64,000 bases of DNA from an uncultured Mollicutes bacterium (lineage in GTDB: Bacteria; Bacillota_I; Bacilli_A; Acholeplasmatales; Anaeroplasmataceae). Below the pieces are notes generated by a model, which was given only the letters and a program-made list of their open reading frames with translations, was not told the DNA's origin and ran no database searches. Below are positions 7,438-23,171 of the stretch, piece after piece. Each line of letters starts with the position of its first letter. Positions within the stretch are counted from its first letter, which is position 1. The position numbers and the translations under genes were made by a program. The stretch is from NCBI GenBank assembly GCA_945923475.1, contig CAMELE010000002.1, positions 62,001 through 126,000 of the forward strand. The letters run 5' to 3'.

Positions 7438-7854
7438 TTAGTGCTTTTGATCTAAAAAATCCTGTAATATGACTACCGCAGCCATTTCATCTTTCTTTTG
7501 ATGTCTCTTTTGTCTTGATAAATTTCCTAAAATCATAGCTTTATCTACTCTTACAGTTGTAAGTCTTTCATCGATTAAATGAACCTTAATATCTGATCTT
7601 TTTTCAATTTCTGCTTTAAAATTATAGCTAATTTGGGATCTTATTCCCTCATCACCATTCATGTGCTTGGGGTTCCCAAGTACTATTTCCTTGATTTTTT
7701 CCTTTTGACAAATCTCAATGGTTTTTTCAATAGCATATTCGTAATCATCATCTTGAAAGCGCAATGTATCATATGCTCTTGAAAACATACCAAGCTCATC
7801 AGAAATTGCAAGACCTAGTGTTCTTGAACCTAAATCTAATCCTAAATATTTCAT
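7438..7854 (-). CDS. ruvX: Pre-16S rRNA nuclease / Holliday junction resolvase-like YqgF
   Basis: RNase H-fold protein required for 16S rRNA 5'-end maturation. The first catalytic aspartate is in YLGLDLGSRTLGLAISD (residues 3-19), a glutamate-bearing strand in EIVLGNPKHMNG, and the DERLTT motif near residue 100 supplies the second acidic residue. Length 138 is exactly typical. It starts at the alaS stop codon (shared base at 7854), so it depends on the alaS T-box transcript. Confidence 0.95.
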   Translation of the reverse strand: MKYLGLDLGSRTLGLAISDELGMFSRAYDTLRFQDDDYEYAIEKTIEICQKEKIKEIVLGNPKHMNGDEGIRSQISYNFKAEIEKRSDIKVHLIDERLTTVRVDKAMILGNLSRQKRHQKKDEMAAVVILQDFLDQKH

Positions 7855-10463
7855 TATAGTGATTCCTTGATTTGCTTAATAATAGAGTCTAGGTTATCAG
7901 GAATTTCACCACCCGCTTGTGCAATATCAGGCTTACCTCCACCTTTACCATTACATAATGCGGCTGCCTTTTTAACGATGTCAGATGCATTAATCGTGCC
8001 ATTTGTTTTAGCTACAAATGTTATACGATTATTATTAATAGAACTAATAAATACTAAAGCTAAATTATATTTATTCTGTAAAGCAGATGCTAAATCCTTA
8101 ATTACATTTGTATCCTTACCATCTAAACTAATAAACAAATATTGATTTTTTTCAATTGCATTTTGATATGAATCAAGATCAGAAAGAGCATTTTTACTCT
8201 TTGCATTTTTAAATTCCTTATCCAAATTCTTACATGCATTTGATAAATAAGCTATATGTTCTTTAAGCTTTAATACATATCTATATCCTACTTCATTACC
8301 ATAGCTAAATTCATCCTTGAATGATAATTTAATATTTTCATTCTTAGCATCATTAATAATAGAATTTATTTTATTATTAATTGTATTAAGCTCATCTTCT
8401 AGGTTCTTAAGATTTTCCTTAAGTAAGCTAAATGCATTAGGACCTGTTGTAGCTAAGCATCTAAATACTCCTGAGCCTATTGATTCAAAGCCTACAATTT
8501 GGAATGATTTTATATCGCTTGTATTAGCTACGTGTGTACCTGCACAAAATTCACGAGAAACACCCATATCTACTACTCTTACCAAATCACCATATTTATC
8601 GTCAAATAATGCCATTGCATCTAGCTTTTTAGCTTCCTCAATTGGTAAAACCTTTGTGTCTACAATATGTGCTTCATTGATATATTGATTTACTAGGTCC
8701 TCAACCTTTATTATTTCTTCATCCTTAAATGAATTATAATTATTAAAATCAAAGCGCATATAGCTTGATGAAACCTGAGATCCTTGTTGATGAATATGAT
8801 GACCAAATAAAGCTTGAAGTGCAGCTTGGAATAGGTGAGCTGAAGAGTGATTTTTACGAGTTAAATTTCTGTTTTCTAAATCAACCTTACAAACTACTTT
8901 GTCACCAACATTAAATTTTTTATCTAAGACAATATGTAAATGCTGTCCATTAGGAAGCTTTGAAACATCTGAAACCTCAAAACCATCAATTGTTCCCTTA
9001 TCGCATAATTGACCACCACTAAATGCATAGAATGGTGTTTTATCAAGAACAATACCATTATCAAATACAGCAATAACTGTTGAATTAGATTCTAAATTAT
9101 CATAACCAATAAATTCTGATTTATCCTTAAATTGCATAAATGATTCATTCTGTGAAGCAAAGGATGCCATATCCTTTCTTGAGCTTCTTGCACGCTCTTT
9201 TTGTAAAGCCATAGCTTTTTTAAAGCCATCTTCATCAACGCTTTTTCCAAGCTCCTCTGCATATTCTTGAGTTAATTCATATGGGAATCCGTATGTATCA
9301 TATAATAAGAATGCGTCTTCACCACTAATTACATCACAATTTTTAGCAATTTCACTAAATCTCTTTTCACCTTGATTAATCGTTTCTAGGAATTTAGTTT
9401 CTTCTCTTGTCATTATTTCCTTTACAATTGATGCCTTATCCTTCAAATATGGATAGAATGGCTCCATTATATCTATTACGACATCAACTAGTTCTGACAT
9501 AAATGGACGATTAATGCCTAATCGTTTAGCATATTTTGTAGCACGTCTTAGAACACGTCTTAGGACATAGCCTCTTCCCTCATTTGACATTGTTGCACCA
9601 TCAGCCACTGCAAATGTTACTGTACGGACATGGTCAGCAATAACCTTAAATGCCATTTGGCCATCATATTTTACTCCACAAATATCTGAAATCTTATTAA
9701 TTAGAGGCATAAATAAGTCAGTATCATAGTTAGTATTAACACCTTGCATTACACAGCATAAACGCTCAAGGCCTGAACCAGTATCAATATTTTTATGAGG
9801 CAATTCCTTATATTCGCTTCTTGGAATACCTGGTTTAGAATTATATTGAGAAAATACAATATTCCAAATTTCAATGAAACGATCATTTTCGATATCATTT
9901 TCTAGTAATTCCTTACCACGAGAATCATATGATGAGCCCCTATCGTAAAAAATTTCTGTATCAGGTCCACATGGTCCTTCACCAATTTCCCAGAAGTTAT
10001 CCTTAAGAGGAATTAAATGATCACTAGCAATACCACATTTTATCCATAAATCTCTAGTTGCACAATCATCTGGATAATATGTGATATATAAATTATTCTT
10101 ATCCATTCCAAACCATTTTTCACTTGTTAATAGCTCGTATGCCCATGGTAGAACCTCATCTCTAAAATAATCACCTATTGAGAAATTACCCAACATCTCA
10201 AAGAATGTATGATGTCTTGCAGTTTTACCGACGTTTTCAATATCATTTGTACGAATACATTTTTGAGCATTTGTGATTCTTGGATTAGATGGAATTACTG
10301 AACCATCAAAGTATTTCTTAAGCGGACTAACCCCAGCATTTGTCCATAATAATGTTGGATCATTTTGAGGAATCAATGATGCAGATGGCTCTACTTGATG
10401 TCCCTTAGACTTAAAAAAGTCTAACCACATTTGTCTAATTTCATAGCTTTTCATTTTTTTCAT
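7854..10463 (-). CDS. alaS: Alanyl-tRNA synthetase
   Basis: Charges tRNA-Ala and hydrolyses Ser- and Gly-tRNA-Ala. From the chosen start the order is: class II catalytic core with HTFFEMLGNFSIGDYF, tRNA-recognition helices, editing domain with zinc ligands in NHSSAHLFQAAL and CAGTHV, and the C-terminal DHHA1 domain ending GGGKPDIAQAGG. About 869 residues, normal. ATG 10463 was chosen because AAAGGAGA precedes it by 8 bases; the open frame runs on upstream into the T-box and is not coding there. Expression is controlled by the T-box leader just upstream. Confidence 0.98.
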   Translation of the reverse strand: MKKMKSYEIRQMWLDFFKSKGHQVEPSASLIPQNDPTLLWTNAGVSPLKKYFDGSVIPSNPRITNAQKCIRTNDIENVGKTARHHTFFEMLGNFSIGDYFRDEVLPWAYELLTSEKWFGMDKNNLYITYYPDDCATRDLWIKCGIASDHLIPLKDNFWEIGEGPCGPDTEIFYDRGSSYDSRGKELLENDIENDRFIEIWNIVFSQYNSKPGIPRSEYKELPHKNIDTGSGLERLCCVMQGVNTNYDTDLFMPLINKISDICGVKYDGQMAFKVIADHVRTVTFAVADGATMSNEGRGYVLRRVLRRATKYAKRLGINRPFMSELVDVVIDIMEPFYPYLKDKASIVKEIMTREETKFLETINQGEKRFSEIAKNCDVISGEDAFLLYDTYGFPYELTQEYAEELGKSVDEDGFKKAMALQKERARSSRKDMASFASQNESFMQFKDKSEFIGYDNLESNSTVIAVFDNGIVLDKTPFYAFSGGQLCDKGTIDGFEVSDVSKLPNGQHLHIVLDKKFNVGDKVVCKVDLENRNLTRKNHSSAHLFQAALQALFGHHIHQQGSQVSSSYMRFDFNNYNSFKDEEIIKVEDLVNQYINEAHIVDTKVLPIEEAKKLDAMALFDDKYGDLVRVVDMGVSREFCAGTHVANTSDIKSFQIVGFESIGSGVFRCLATTGPNAFSLLKENLKNLEDELNTINNKINSIINDAKNENIKLSFKDEFSYGNEVGYRYVLKLKEHIAYLSNACKNLDKEFKNAKSKNALSDLDSYQNAIEKNQYLFISLDGKDTNVIKDLASALQNKYNLALVFISSINNNRITFVAKTNGTINASDIVKKAAALCNGKGGGKPDIAQAGGEIPDNLDSIIKQIKESL

Positions 10464-10483
10464 AGTAAAAATCTCCTTTAAAT

Positions 10484-10672
10484 AAAAAAACGTCCTTAAA
10501 TCTAAGGACGAATTATCGCGGTACCACCTTAGTTCAGATATAAAATCTGCCCTCAAAATCCTTAACGCGGATTATACGATTAGCTCCATAGTAGCTTCAA
10601 GCATACTTCCCGGCTTCCACCATCCCGAGTCTCTAGTTTTTGTAGCTTTACTTATCTATTTCAACGCTATTT
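10484..10672 (-). promoter_or_regulatory. T-box riboswitch, alanine specifier GCU, upstream of alaS
   Basis: The conserved T-box core AAGGTGGTACCGCG is at 10517-10530 (minus strand). It is followed by the terminator hairpin CGTCCTTA/TAAGGACG and a T run. Stem I can be folded with AUAG/CUAU below and AAGC/GCUU above an internal loop. The loop has AGUA on its 5' side and GAAGCUA on its 3' side, placing the specifier GCU (Ala) at 10593-10595. Uncharged tRNA-Ala should stabilise the antiterminator. Confidence 0.95.
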
Positions 10673-10678
10673 GCTAAT

Positions 10679-18403: not shown

Positions 18404-18780
18404 AAAATCAACTCCTTGATTGGAAAAATTAATAATAAATATACAATAATCCCGATAAATATATATATAGTAGCATTAGTAATTAAAATAGGGCTGTATT
18501 TAAATTCTTCAATTTTTTTCTTATAGATACTTAAAATTATGACATTATAAATAAATAATGAACCCAATACTACTACAACTGCAGCTAACGCTACAAAATT
18601 AAAGTATTCCTCAAATAAAAATAAATTAACTATTAATGCAATTGGAGCACTAGCAAAAAACAATGTAAATATTACGGCAATTAAATTATATAATAGCTTA
18701 TCCTTAAATTTTATCCTCTTTTTTCCAGATAATAAAACTTTTTGTGCCTCATAATATGAATTTAGTACTTTATGCATCAA
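18400..18780 (-). CDS. Unknown 126-residue membrane protein
   Basis: Not recognised. After a basic N terminus (KKRIKFKDKL) there are about three to four hydrophobic segments: LIAVIFTLFFASAPIALIVN, FNFVALAAVVVVLGSLFIYN and ILITNATIYIFIGIIVYLLL. It overlaps lspA (ATGA) and the protease gene on the other side, so it belongs to the same operon. It ends with TGA, confirming UGA as a stop. Confidence 0.7.
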   Translation of the reverse strand: MMHKVLNSYYEAQKVLLSGKKRIKFKDKLLYNLIAVIFTLFFASAPIALIVNLFLFEEYFNFVALAAVVVVLGSLFIYNVIILSIYKKKIEEFKYSPILITNATIYIFIGIIVYLLLIFPIKELIL

Positions 18781-19795
18781 GCTCCTCCAAATATTTTACT
18801 GCATCCTCAAACGTATCAACTACATAAAATTTCATTTTACCTTTATTTCTTAAACTATTGTACGCTTTTAATCCATCTGTTGCATTTTCTCTTGGGCAAA
18901 AGAATACATCTACCTTTCTTAAGGATGCTGTATACACCTTTTGTTCAATACCACCAATTGCGCCAACATTACCAGCTACATCAATTGTACCAGTACCAGA
19001 AATTGTTAACCCATGAGTATAATCAAATGATAATAAACGATTAAAAACAGATAGGGTTTGTAGTAATCCTGCCGATGGACCTACAGTTGATGATTTATTG
19101 ATTTTAATTGAAGGCGTTGAATTTTCATAATCAATATCATATATATGATAATATCCATATCTTACATAGGTATGATCATTGCTTTTATAAACATCATCGC
19201 TTGTTAAAACGTGCGTAATAACCTTATTGTCCCTTAAAATATAAAATGTATCACCAACATTTTGATTTAGAAATGCATTTTTAAAATCATCAACATTATC
19301 ATTAACATTATAATTATTTATTTGATATATTAAATCATTAACCTTAAAAGCTAAGCCCTCTGCATAATATGCAATTTTAAAGCCTGTATATTTATACATA
19401 AGGTTAATATTAGAATCACGTTTTGACGCTTCCTTATAGCTATATATTAAAGAATACATAATTGAGGTATCCTTATATAATATACCCTGATCAGATAGTT
19501 CTTTATTAGAATAATATGACTGATACGATATATCATTAGATGTACTTATTTCTGATGTTTCTAACAACATATTTTGAAATATTGTTGTATGAGAGAATGT
19601 TGTAACATATACACTATTAAATGAACCTTCCTCGTTATTTTGAGTATTAATCTCGATTAAATCATTAACATTATTAATATCTCCTGGCATAAGAGCCTGC
19701 CGATCAGTACGAGTTGTAGTAATAACTAAAATATATATGTATGGTACCATTAATACCAATGCTATAATTATTAATCTTTTTAATATTATTCGCAA
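18770..19795 (-). CDS. Membrane-anchored PDZ and Lon-type (S16) protease, YlbL-like
   Basis: One N-terminal transmembrane anchor (residues 7-25) is followed by an extracytoplasmic linker. A PDZ-like region (about 140-205, EGLAFKVNDLIYQINNYNV) and a C-terminal Lon protease domain follow. The catalytic serine is in VGPSAGLLQT and the lysine in GGIEQKVYTA, the Ser-Lys dyad of family S16. It resembles Bacillus YlbL in size (341) and order. The start is TTG with GAGGT 9 bases upstream. Substrates are unknown; YlbL acts in cell-division checkpoint recovery in B. subtilis. Confidence 0.88.
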   Translation of the reverse strand: MRIILKRLIIIALVLMVPYIYILVITTTRTDRQALMPGDINNVNDLIEINTQNNEEGSFNSVYVTTFSHTTIFQNMLLETSEISTSNDISYQSYYSNKELSDQGILYKDTSIMYSLIYSYKEASKRDSNINLMYKYTGFKIAYYAEGLAFKVNDLIYQINNYNVNDNVDDFKNAFLNQNVGDTFYILRDNKVITHVLTSDDVYKSNDHTYVRYGYYHIYDIDYENSTPSIKINKSSTVGPSAGLLQTLSVFNRLLSFDYTHGLTISGTGTIDVAGNVGAIGGIEQKVYTASLRKVDVFFCPRENATDGLKAYNSLRNKGKMKFYVVDTFEDAVKYLEELDA

Positions 19796-20259
19796 GTTAA
19801 ATCTACCTCAATTTTTTTAATTTGCTTATATGTAACACCTGCACTATCAAGCATTCTTCTAGATGCAATTGAAGAATCCTCATCTTTATATTTATCATCC
19901 ATATAATAGATATGCTTTATTCCGCTTTGAATGATTAGCTTAGCACATTCATTACATGGAAAAAGTGTAACATATAAAGATGCATTCTCAAGATTTGAGG
20001 TGGAATTTAAAATAGCATTTGGTTCAGCATGAACAACATATGGATATTTTGTATCAAGATATGGACCGGTTTTATCATTAGTCCATGGATACTTATCATC
20101 ATCACAGCCAAATGGTAGACCATTATAGCCTATTCCTACTATTCTTTTTGATGTATTAACTATACAGGCTCCAACCTGAGTGTTTGGGTCTTTACTTCTT
20201 TTAGCAGAAAGTAAAGCAACCCCCATAAAATATTCATCCCAGCTTATATTTTTTCTCAT
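19786..20259 (-). CDS. Deoxycytidylate deaminase (ComEB-like)
   Basis: Zinc enzyme converting dCMP to dUMP, feeding thymidylate synthesis by ThyA (present at 32973-33839). The catalytic site HAEPNAILN supplies His and the proton-shuttling Glu, and PCNECAKLI supplies two zinc cysteines. QVGACIVN and GYNGLPFGCDD near the N terminus are typical of dCMP deaminases rather than tRNA or cytidine deaminases. 157 residues, normal. No clear ribosome site is seen before the ATG. Confidence 0.92.
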   Translation of the reverse strand: MRKNISWDEYFMGVALLSAKRSKDPNTQVGACIVNTSKRIVGIGYNGLPFGCDDDKYPWTNDKTGPYLDTKYPYVVHAEPNAILNSTSNLENASLYVTLFPCNECAKLIIQSGIKHIYYMDDKYKDEDSSIASRRMLDSAGVTYKQIKKIEVDLTCE

Positions 20260-20353: not shown

Positions 20354-21655
20354 TTAAGGATTTAAGCGATCTGGTCCACGGAATATGAACATAGCATCCT
20401 TAATACCAACATTAAAGATTAGCATTGTTATACGGTCAACACCAATACCAAAGCCGCCATGTGGAGGACATCCATATTTGAAGAAATCTAAATAAAACTT
20501 AACATCATTGTCAAGGCCTTTTTCTTTAGCCTGGGCACATAGTACATCATAACGATGCTCTCTTTGAGCTCCAGTTGTAATCTCACAGCCTTTCCAAATC
20601 AAGTCATAGCCTTGAGGTACACCATGTTCATCACGCATATGATAGAATGCACGGCATTCCTTACTATAGCCTGTTACAAATAAGAATTCATGTCCATATT
20701 TATCCATTGAAAATTGAGCACACATTCTTTCTCCTTCAGTTGTAAGATCTCCCTTTTCCTCCTCAGGAACCTTGTAGCCATATCTTTGCTCTAGCTCATC
20801 ATATAAGTCATGTAAGTCAATTCTTGGGAATGGCTTTTTAGGTACAACAATTTCAAGACCAAATACCTTCTTAATTTCTTCATTGTACTTGTCATGGCAG
20901 GCCTCAAGAGCATATGTTAGCATATCCTCTTCCATTTTCATTACATCCTCATATGATTCAATATATGAAAACTCTAAATCAAAGCCTGTAAACTCTGTTG
21001 CATGCTTACGAGATGCAAATTTTTCGGCTCTAAAAACTGGTCCAGATTCAAAAATACGTTCAAATCCAGCAGCCATTGCCATTTGTTTATAGAATTGAGG
21101 TGATTGAGCTAAATAAGCATTACGATCAAAATAATCTACCTTAAATACTCCAGCACCAGATTCTGACTCTGCACCCTGAAGCTTTGGTGAATGAATTTCA
21201 ATAAAATCATTATTTATTAAAAACTCACGACATTTAGATACAAAATAAGATTGAACCTTAAACATTAATGTATTTTTTTCAGTACGTAGGTCAATCCAAC
21301 GATAATCAATTCTTAAATCAATGTTTGTTTCCTCTCCTTTAGGAGCTACGATTGGATTTGGTGCTGAAATACTATCTATCTTAATTGTATCTGGATACAT
21401 TTCCATACCATTTAGTTTAACATACTCAGATGCTAAAATTAGACCCTCAGCCTCAATAACTGAATCATTTGTAATTTGATCTAAAATATCATTAAGTTCA
21501 GGATGCTTCTCTTTCTCAATTGTAAGTTGTAGCTTACCAGAAACATCTCTTAAAACAATAAAGCACATTGCTTTTTTATTTCTAATTGTTTCAACGAACC
21601 CTGCTACGTGATTTACCTCACCTAATTTGATATTTTTAATTAATTCTCTTTTCAT
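20354..21655 (-). CDS. aspS: Archaeal-type aspartyl-tRNA synthetase, probably acting on tRNA-Asn
   Basis: Class II synthetase. At 433 residues it lacks the roughly 100-residue GAD insertion of standard bacterial AspRS and so belongs to the archaeal/nondiscriminating type. An OB-fold anticodon domain (1-105) is followed by the catalytic core: motif 1 around FIEIHSPKLQG, motif 2 FRAEKFASRKHATEFTGFDL, motif 3 GGFGIGVDRITMLIF. Such enzymes in Clostridia form Asp-tRNA-Asn for conversion by GatCAB. The T-box at the head of this operon can be read with an Asn specifier, which agrees. No gatCAB genes are in the window. A discriminating AsnRS is less likely from motif 2. Confidence 0.9.
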   Translation of the reverse strand: MKRELIKNIKLGEVNHVAGFVETIRNKKAMCFIVLRDVSGKLQLTIEKEKHPELNDILDQITNDSVIEAEGLILASEYVKLNGMEMYPDTIKIDSISAPNPIVAPKGEETNIDLRIDYRWIDLRTEKNTLMFKVQSYFVSKCREFLINNDFIEIHSPKLQGAESESGAGVFKVDYFDRNAYLAQSPQFYKQMAMAAGFERIFESGPVFRAEKFASRKHATEFTGFDLEFSYIESYEDVMKMEEDMLTYALEACHDKYNEEIKKVFGLEIVVPKKPFPRIDLHDLYDELEQRYGYKVPEEEKGDLTTEGERMCAQFSMDKYGHEFLFVTGYSKECRAFYHMRDEHGVPQGYDLIWKGCEITTGAQREHRYDVLCAQAKEKGLDNDVKFYLDFFKYGCPPHGGFGIGVDRITMLIFNVGIKDAMFIFRGPDRLNP

Positions 21656-21658
21656 ATT

Positions 21659-22366
21659 TTATTCCTCCTTTTCCTTACAACCACTGCATTTGTTTAATCC
21701 TTTAATATATGCAAATATGTAAGGATATAATTCATTAATATTAATATCTTGCTCTTCGTTTGTTTTTGTATTGAGGATAGTTAAATTATCTTTGTCATAT
21801 GTACAAATAAACATACTATTTTGGTCATATGCAAAATTAATAGCATCCTCTAAATTGCTAGGATTTATCATGATTTCTGCTTTTAATCCTCCAAGCCTAC
21901 ATACATTTAGCTCTCTTAGGGCTTCATCTATTGATTGGTCATTAAGAGCTATCATATATACATGATAGAACGGTTTTGAATCAAGGCTTCTTTTTTCATT
22001 GGCAATTTGTTCAATAACTAAATCTAAATTAATCTTTAGAATCAAATTATTATCATCATTAATAATACCAATTTGTTCATTATTAACTATATATTTAAGA
22101 TTATAGGTATTTATATTACAATCTAAATTATATTTTTTAAATCCAAAACCCTTATTAATAGCTAAAAGGTAATCATAAATCTCCTTAAATGAATATTTAT
22201 TACTATTACATTTTGCTACAAAAATCATTGATTCTTTTTCTATAAGAAATTTACATTCCTTATTTTGATTGGAAAAATCCTCATTAATAAGTAGATTAAA
22301 GCCATAAAGGTCACTAATTCTTTCAATCATATCAATAATTCTTTTTAACCATCTAGACTTATTCAT
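21659..22366 (-). CDS. Degenerate HisRS-like protein with C-terminal anticodon-binding-like domain
   Basis: 235 residues. Roughly 135-225 (YHVYMIALNDQSIDEALREL, then GGLKAEIMINPSNLEDAINFA, DQNSMFICTYDKDN and TNEEQDININEL) follow the strand-helix order of the HisRS anticodon-binding domain. The N terminus (IIDMIERISDLYGFNLLI) recalls the first HisRS helix. Catalytic motifs 1-3 are not recognisable and about 200 residues are missing. It ends in CSGC and an acidic tail. hisS normally precedes aspS in Bacilli, which fits a relic or HisZ-like regulatory derivative. It sits between GNAT and aspS with 4-8 base junctions under the same T-box. The assignment is from pattern only. Confidence 0.55.
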   Translation of the reverse strand: MNKSRWLKRIIDMIERISDLYGFNLLINEDFSNQNKECKFLIEKESMIFVAKCNSNKYSFKEIYDYLLAINKGFGFKKYNLDCNINTYNLKYIVNNEQIGIINDDNNLILKINLDLVIEQIANEKRSLDSKPFYHVYMIALNDQSIDEALRELNVCRLGGLKAEIMINPSNLEDAINFAYDQNSMFICTYDKDNLTILNTKTNEEQDININELYPYIFAYIKGLNKCSGCKEKEE

Positions 22367-22925
22367 TGATTAACCCCTCATATTCCTCTTTATACATACT
22401 ATAATAAATGATATTTCGTTTTTCATGAGTGTCCTTAGTTTCAAATTCACCGTATCTTGTAAACTCATATTTGAAGCCAACTCGTTTAACTAATCTTTCG
22501 CATTCTTCATTTAAATCAACGTGACCGACAATTATTTTACTTAAGCCCAAATATAAAAAGCCTACCTTAATCATTTCCTTAAGAGCACAGGTCATTATGC
22601 CTTTATGCCTGTAATCCTCTCTTAAAATAAAACCTAGTTCAGCACAATTTGTTTGAACAAAATAGGTATGATACTCAATAATTCCAATCATCTCATCCTT
22701 TTTGTTTACAATTGCATATGCTCCTGGTAAACCCATTTTTTGTCTACTAAAGTAAAATTTATCTAGGCAAAGTCTCGCTTCTGATACATTACTTACCGGT
22801 CCAAATGTTAAATATCTGCAAGTCTCAAACGATGATACAAGAAAAAAATAATCTAATGTATCATTCTCATTAAGCTCTCTAAGCTTAAACAACCTATGAT
22901 TTATAACAGGTAAATTTGATTTCAC
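22359..22925 (-). CDS. GNAT acetyltransferase, RimJ/RimL type
   Basis: N-acetyltransferase of the GNAT fold, likely acting on a protein N terminus or a small molecule. Residues near 95-115 (CAELGFILREDYRHKGIMTC) form the acetyl-CoA-binding motif with R-x-x-G, and LGLSKIIVGHVDLNEECERL is the typical RimJ follow-on. 188 residues. The start is GTG after GAGGAGG. It is the first gene of the T-box operon ahead of the HisRS-like gene and aspS, so its expression should rise when the cognate tRNA is uncharged. Confidence 0.85.
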   Translation of the reverse strand: MKSNLPVINHRLFKLRELNENDTLDYFFLVSSFETCRYLTFGPVSNVSEARLCLDKFYFSRQKMGLPGAYAIVNKKDEMIGIIEYHTYFVQTNCAELGFILREDYRHKGIMTCALKEMIKVGFLYLGLSKIIVGHVDLNEECERLVKRVGFKYEFTRYGEFETKDTHEKRNIIYYSMYKEEYEGLINE

Positions 22926-22935
22926 AATGTCCTCC

Positions 22936-23171
22936 TCAAGAAAAAAAGGTCCTTAAAATATGAAAAATCATATCTATAAGGACGAAATAACCGTGGTGCC
23001 ACCTTACTTCTAGTAAATTTAAACTAGCTCTATCCGTTAACGCCGGCTACGTATTACTCTCGTAATCATTCCAAAAGTGTCATCGCTATCTGATTAATTA
23101 AACCCTTTCACCATCGGTTCTCGCTAATAATTATCACTTATAGTTACTTCTTTTATCATCACTTTAGTATA
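22936..23171 (-). promoter_or_regulatory. T-box riboswitch of the GNAT-HisRS-like-aspS operon, specifier probably AAU (Asn)
   Basis: The T-box core AAGGTGGCACCACGG is at 22991-23005 and the terminator GTCCTTATAGATATGA/TCATATTTTAAGGAC plus T run lies just before the ribosome site. Folding stem I by eye gives UGAU/AUUA below the specifier loop and AAGUG/CACUU above it, with AAGUA on the 5' side. This places AAU (Asn, 23068-23070) followed by G as the specifier. A one-frame shift would read GAU (Asp, 23065-23067). Either fits AspRS; AAU fits an Asp-tRNA-Asn enzyme. Confidence 0.9.

Follow-up and report, generated by a model that had tools for sequence, protein, structure and literature searches.

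A non-catalytic relic of histidyl-tRNA synthetase, probably retained for another function, in a T-box operon of Anaeroplasmataceae

Results

We analysed a window of 64,000 nucleotides from the genome of an uncultured Mollicutes bacterium (Anaeroplasmataceae), in which a T-box leader on the reverse strand is followed by three closely spaced genes. The first (22359..22925(-), GTG start) encodes a GNAT acetyltransferase of 188 amino acids (Acetyltransf_3, Pfam PF13302, E 8e-17). It overlaps by 8 nt the second gene (21659..22366(-)), which has an intact frame and encodes a HisRS-derived protein of 235 amino acids without catalytic motifs, hereafter pseudo-HisRS; the probability of a chance ORF of this length at the same base composition is ~1e-11. 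The third gene, aspS (20354..21655(-)), begins 3 nt downstream of the pseudo-HisRS gene, whose 3' end contains the aspS Shine-Dalgarno sequence, AGGAGG. It encodes an archaeal-type AspRS of 433 amino acids (NF003483 'aspartate--tRNA(Asn) ligase', 420.6 bits against a cut-off of 353). The coordinates and the Rfam match described below agree with the earlier note on this DNA, which placed the HisRS-like gene between a GNAT gene and aspS under one T-box. Relatives have the same GNAT-hisS-aspS slot; this order is ordinary for Anaeroplasmataceae (the alternative being T-box-hisS-aspS) and the GNAT gene is optional, present at this place in most relatives, not all. Gene packing at the relatives' hisS-aspS loci is similarly tight. 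Downstream of aspS lie genes for a dCMP deaminase and a Lon-like protease (18770-20259(-)), an order kept family-wide, even in lineage f9, where hisS is lost.

The T-box leader (22975..23168(-)) matches the full RF00230 model (positions 1-219; E 4.8e-20) with 88.2 bits, slightly below the Rfam gathering score of 93. The orthologous leaders of seven relatives pass this score, leaders at the same place in relatives scoring 94.6-111.2 bits, and the leader of the operon is genuine. An intrinsic terminator located in the sequence (22940..22983(-)) consists of a hairpin, also seen in the predicted RNA fold, and a T7 run. The specifier region, read from the sequence and compared with relatives, is GACAC (23077..23081(-)), in which GAC (Asp) overlaps CAC (His). 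It is present in all four genomes of the family that carry a hisS remnant (see below) and in nearly all genomes with intact hisS; a loss of His sensing is thus rejected for the remnant genomes. The GAC register is suggested by a second, ordinary T-box of the window, that of alaS (leader 10501-10673(-), 97 bits; gene 7854-10556(-)), which shows GAA-GCU-A with the specifier GCU. Variants of the specifier region are GGCAC in G016 (L092), which keeps CAC, and GACAA in G008 (L097) and GACAG in L131, which keep GAC. These may reveal which tRNA the T-box senses.

By sequence search, pseudo-HisRS had no match in Pfam or the PDB, and the HisZ model TIGR00443 did not match it up to E 1. The NCBIfam hisS model TIGR00442 matched residues 115-204 only (model positions 306-400; E 3.7e-4), and the 19.6 bits of this match do not reach the model's cut-off of 286.75 bits, against 455-501 bits for the relatives' full HisRS. 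Full HisRS of family members align to the C-terminal half of pseudo-HisRS with E down to 5e-18. Since these proteins match it and occupy the same slot, and since HisRS is its best Foldseek match, pseudo-HisRS shares ancestry with the native HisRS. The earlier note had taken the gene for a decayed hisS in the slot before aspS, and relatives indeed carry a full hisS there.

We modelled pseudo-HisRS with AlphaFold2, a check proposed in the earlier note, using an alignment of the remnants with pieces of HisRS; pieces were chosen because MAFFT placed the N-terminal half wrongly when HisRS of full length were used. The model (mean pLDDT 84.4) has a shrunken HisRS fold. Its best match in Foldseek was the S. 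aureus HisRS (1qe0_B, E 4.7e-10, TM 0.63 by query length), with an alignment spanning both domains. A second model, made from the four family remnants only, reproduced the succession of helices and strands (pLDDT 74.8) and was again nearest to HisRS, at a lower TM (0.36). The fold of the anticodon-binding domain is predicted with pLDDT >90. An unrelated fold is ruled out by the two models together with Foldseek. The N-terminal half is predicted to be a shrunken scaffold of the catalytic domain; the homology of the C-terminal region to HisRS, as described in the earlier note, is therefore real, but the protein is not a C-terminal domain alone.

The alignment, less certain in the N-terminal than in the C-terminal half, reveals what the four family remnants have lost and kept. 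Class II motifs 1, 2 and 3 are gone from all of them, as the earlier note had read for the 235-residue protein; at motif 3 the native G and R (window-protein positions 113 and 116) are lost. Also lost in all are the RGLDYY (HisA) loop, the segment between motifs 1 and 2, most of the motif 2 loop and the insertion domain. In the anticodon-binding domain, K173, K177 and D180 of the native K-x-Q-F-K-x-A-D consensus are kept in none of the four. Because this otherwise invariant motif is lost throughout, anticodon reading by pseudo-HisRS appears unlikely, and the tRNA-binding role put forward in the earlier note is, as far as the anticodon is concerned, not supported. In contrast to these losses, R157, G160, L161, F186, I197, I208, Y214, Y216 and both cysteines of a C-terminal C-x2-C (C227-C230, codons at 21677..21688(-)) are kept in 4/4, as are the N-terminal helix and core strands. 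The majority of the family's native HisRS, though not all, have the Cys tail. Their C-termini (for example L004, L042 and L055) are mostly Cys-rich with C-x2-C, and those from f2 genomes can hold as many as seven Cys.

We surveyed 55 Anaeroplasmataceae genomes, including that of the window (G000). Native hisS is intact in 49 (split over two contigs in one) and adjoins aspS in every genome whose neighbours were read. Four genomes carry remnants in the hisS slot, of 235 (G000), 252 (G028), 278 (G038) and 298 amino acids (G011), and the slot is unassembled in G002 and G005. The earlier note had proposed a search for a separate full hisS, and the window genome does contain a second HisRS gene (G000:C30:197-1468(-); L031, L090), which we call HisS2. 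It has motif 2, RGQGYY and motif 3, and scores 291.8 bits against the hisS cut-off of 286.75. HisS2 is carried by G000, G002, G028 and G038 in differing neighbourhoods, and none of the 55 genomes combines it with an intact native hisS. The HisS2 proteins are 70-83% identical to each other and about 25% identical to native HisRS. The working HisRS of G011 was not found in its 75% complete genome. Taken together, sequence comparisons indicate that native HisRS has been replaced by the shorter HisS2 in several gut-dwelling Anaeroplasmataceae.

Six HisS2-type proteins tested (including those of G455, G220 and G424) gave no match to HGTP_anticodon (PF03129), which native HisRS do match. Proteins of this type (also L087, L088, L089 and L239-L245) are 402-423 amino acids long, have the full catalytic motifs and are scattered across four families of the class. 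HisS2 is found without a detectable remnant in genus g85 of f9 and in G424 of f14. Contamination as the source of HisS2 is unlikely, as the congener G002 carries an 83% identical copy. Changes of tRNA-His do not explain the replacement: G000 and G002 keep G-1 and C73, like intact lineages, and a flipped 31:39 pair occurs in G003 too but not in G028 or G038.

The remnant genomes lie scattered over the aspS tree, with G000 beside the intact G001 (support 93) and G011 beside the intact G015 (support 100). On aspS, a grouping of all four was rejected (p-AU 1e-5), which rules out a single origin by descent; a grouping of three of them was rejected at 0.015, and G028 and G038 as a pair were not rejected. 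The tree of the HisRS proteins groups the four remnants (support 99), but we do not trust it because its end branches reach 1.4 to 5.6 changes per site. The trees of GNAT and dCMP deaminase neither group the four nor exclude such a group. The deletions of the four remnants are similar, a pattern that might point to a shared origin involving transfer.

A fifth case lies outside the family. G455 (family f26) encodes a HisRS-like protein of 353 amino acids (L275:1810-2871(-)) directly before a bacterial-type aspS, and has a HisS2-type gene elsewhere in its genome. The protein has neither the insertion domain nor RGLDYY, and it lacks the arginines of motif 2, the arginine of motif 3 and the Cys tail. 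Its deletion pattern differs from that of the four family remnants and is milder, and it appears to be at an earlier point of the process seen in the family. Among the listed matches of a profile search across 395 genomes of the class, there was no further clear remnant. The replacement of hisS with retention of a remnant thus seems to have occurred several times independently.

All five remnant frames are open and free of stop codons. In a neutral simulation starting from native genes, the probability of no stop was 0.0035-0.012 at 0.1 change per site, practically zero at 0.2 and at most 0.001 at the observed divergence. GC content still varies by codon position in the remnants (p 7e-4 to 7e-8), with GC at position 1 below that of native genes. 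We also analysed a core of 46 C-terminal-region columns that are hydrophobic in native proteins. The remnants are hydrophobic in 160/180 core cells, against 20% at polar columns, and none of 5000 permutations matched this. Per lineage, 38-42 core residues are hydrophobic against a neutral expectation of 30-33 (P 0.001-0.0035 each), in a simulation run to the remnants' identity. Because this simulation takes every change to be neutral, it makes the evidence look stronger than it is. Open frames and core retention thus argue, as the earlier note did, against simple decay, which is unlikely.

Discussion

The above results suggest that pseudo-HisRS is probably the product of a displaced native hisS, retained for a non-catalytic protein function. 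The sequence data establish its ancestry, the replacement, the repeated occurrence and the preservation of a code for the fold. HisS2 would have taken over the charging of tRNA-His, freeing the native, T-box-controlled hisS from this duty. The freed gene would then have lost motifs 1-3, the RGLDYY loop, the insertion domain and K-x-Q-F-K-x-A-D, while its product may have persisted as a compact folded protein with the core sheet, the scaffold of the anticodon-binding domain and the C-x2-C tail. Pseudo-HisRS would be made together with AspRS upon induction of the Asp/His T-box operon. It most likely acts as a binding protein, working through protein contacts, perhaps metal-assisted via the Cys tail; candidate partners are AspRS, HisS2 or another protein. 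The retained job may be one that native HisRS already had beside aminoacylation. It would not be universally needed, because the HisS2 lineages of f9/g85 and G424 manage with no detectable remnant. This counts against the explanation, as do two further points: the Cys tail is absent from the G455 remnant and from a few native HisRS, and the tight coupling to aspS could by itself keep the frame open.

We weighed three alternatives, of which cis translation coupling ranks first, followed by a trans subunit serving HisS2 and then slow decay. According to the first, the ORF persists only to let ribosomes pass to the aspS start, and the protein is idle. The position of the aspS Shine-Dalgarno within the ORF, the 8-nt overlap with GNAT and the tight packing in relatives as well are what such coupling would produce. 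Coupling, however, requires an open frame and not a hydrophobic core, R157/G160/Y216 and C-x2-C in independent lineages, and two HisS2 lineages have dispensed with the remnant gene, so we regard this explanation as unlikely.

The second alternative, by analogy with HisZ and short HisG, is that pseudo-HisRS supplies the short HisS2 with an anticodon-binding-domain scaffold or an assembly surface. The lack of a Pfam HGTP_anticodon match in HisS2-type proteins, against its presence in native HisRS, would fit such a subunit, as would the presence of HisS2 in each remnant genome whose second HisRS could be found. This co-occurrence is, however, expected anyway, because HisS2 permits native hisS to degrade. 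Furthermore, K-x-Q-F-K-x-A-D is lost in 4/4 family remnants, and the related HisS2 of f9/g85 and G424 function where no remnant is found. We therefore consider a trans subunit improbable, and equally so a two-part HisRS in which a short HisS2 works with the dead remains of its predecessor, a pairing that would have formed independently several times. A general requirement of all HisS2 for an anticodon domain in trans is rejected, as f9/g85 and G424 have none.

Ordinary decay, in which a pseudogene is being lost with its frame open by chance, would account for the fast evolution, the large deletions, the graded lengths from 353 to 235 amino acids and the lower GC at codon position 1, but is very improbable, since 5/5 frames are intact where neutral survival of even one would be no more than ~1% at 0.1 change per site, and lower still at the observed divergence.

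Among known proteins, the direct ancestor of the retained pseudo-HisRS is the bacterial HisRS (HisS, TIGR00442; the native hisS of Anaeroplasmataceae), with which it shares slot, leader, scaffold and C-x2-C tail; it differs in its missing motifs and insertion domain and in its length (235 versus about 440 amino acids). T-box operons of hisS and aspS with overlapping GAC/CAC specifiers and the same gene order are known from Bacilli such as Bacillus, whereas in the window hisS is dead and aspS is of the archaeal type. POLG2, the accessory subunit of the mitochondrial DNA polymerase, is a non-catalytic class II synthetase relative that acts as a protein partner. It appears among the Foldseek matches of the pseudo-HisRS models. 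SLIMP, a SerRS-like protein of insects, is likewise non-catalytic and acts as a protein partner, and is described as having arisen by duplication (PMC9437257). Both are eukaryotic, whereas the relic described here would be the original gene, left after a second enzyme took over. HisZ, the regulatory subunit of ATP phosphoribosyltransferase, is a HisRS paralogue without charging activity and the sole entry for HisRS in a 2022 review of synthetase duplications (PMC9437257). Unlike pseudo-HisRS, HisZ keeps the catalytic-domain fold, and its model TIGR00443 gave no match to the window protein. We found no report of such a HisRS relic in these bacteria in literature searches that covered mostly open-access papers.

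The replacement of hisS in these lineages gives a clear view of the fate of an essential gene after its replacement, and draws attention to short HisRS without a recognisable anticodon-binding domain. In bacteria, it is difficult to tell the second jobs of aminoacyl-tRNA synthetases apart from charging. Here, charging would have been removed several times with the rest of the protein kept, and the conserved parts would therefore point to the second job. The retention of pseudo-HisRS thus suggests that it has such a job, undescribed so far.
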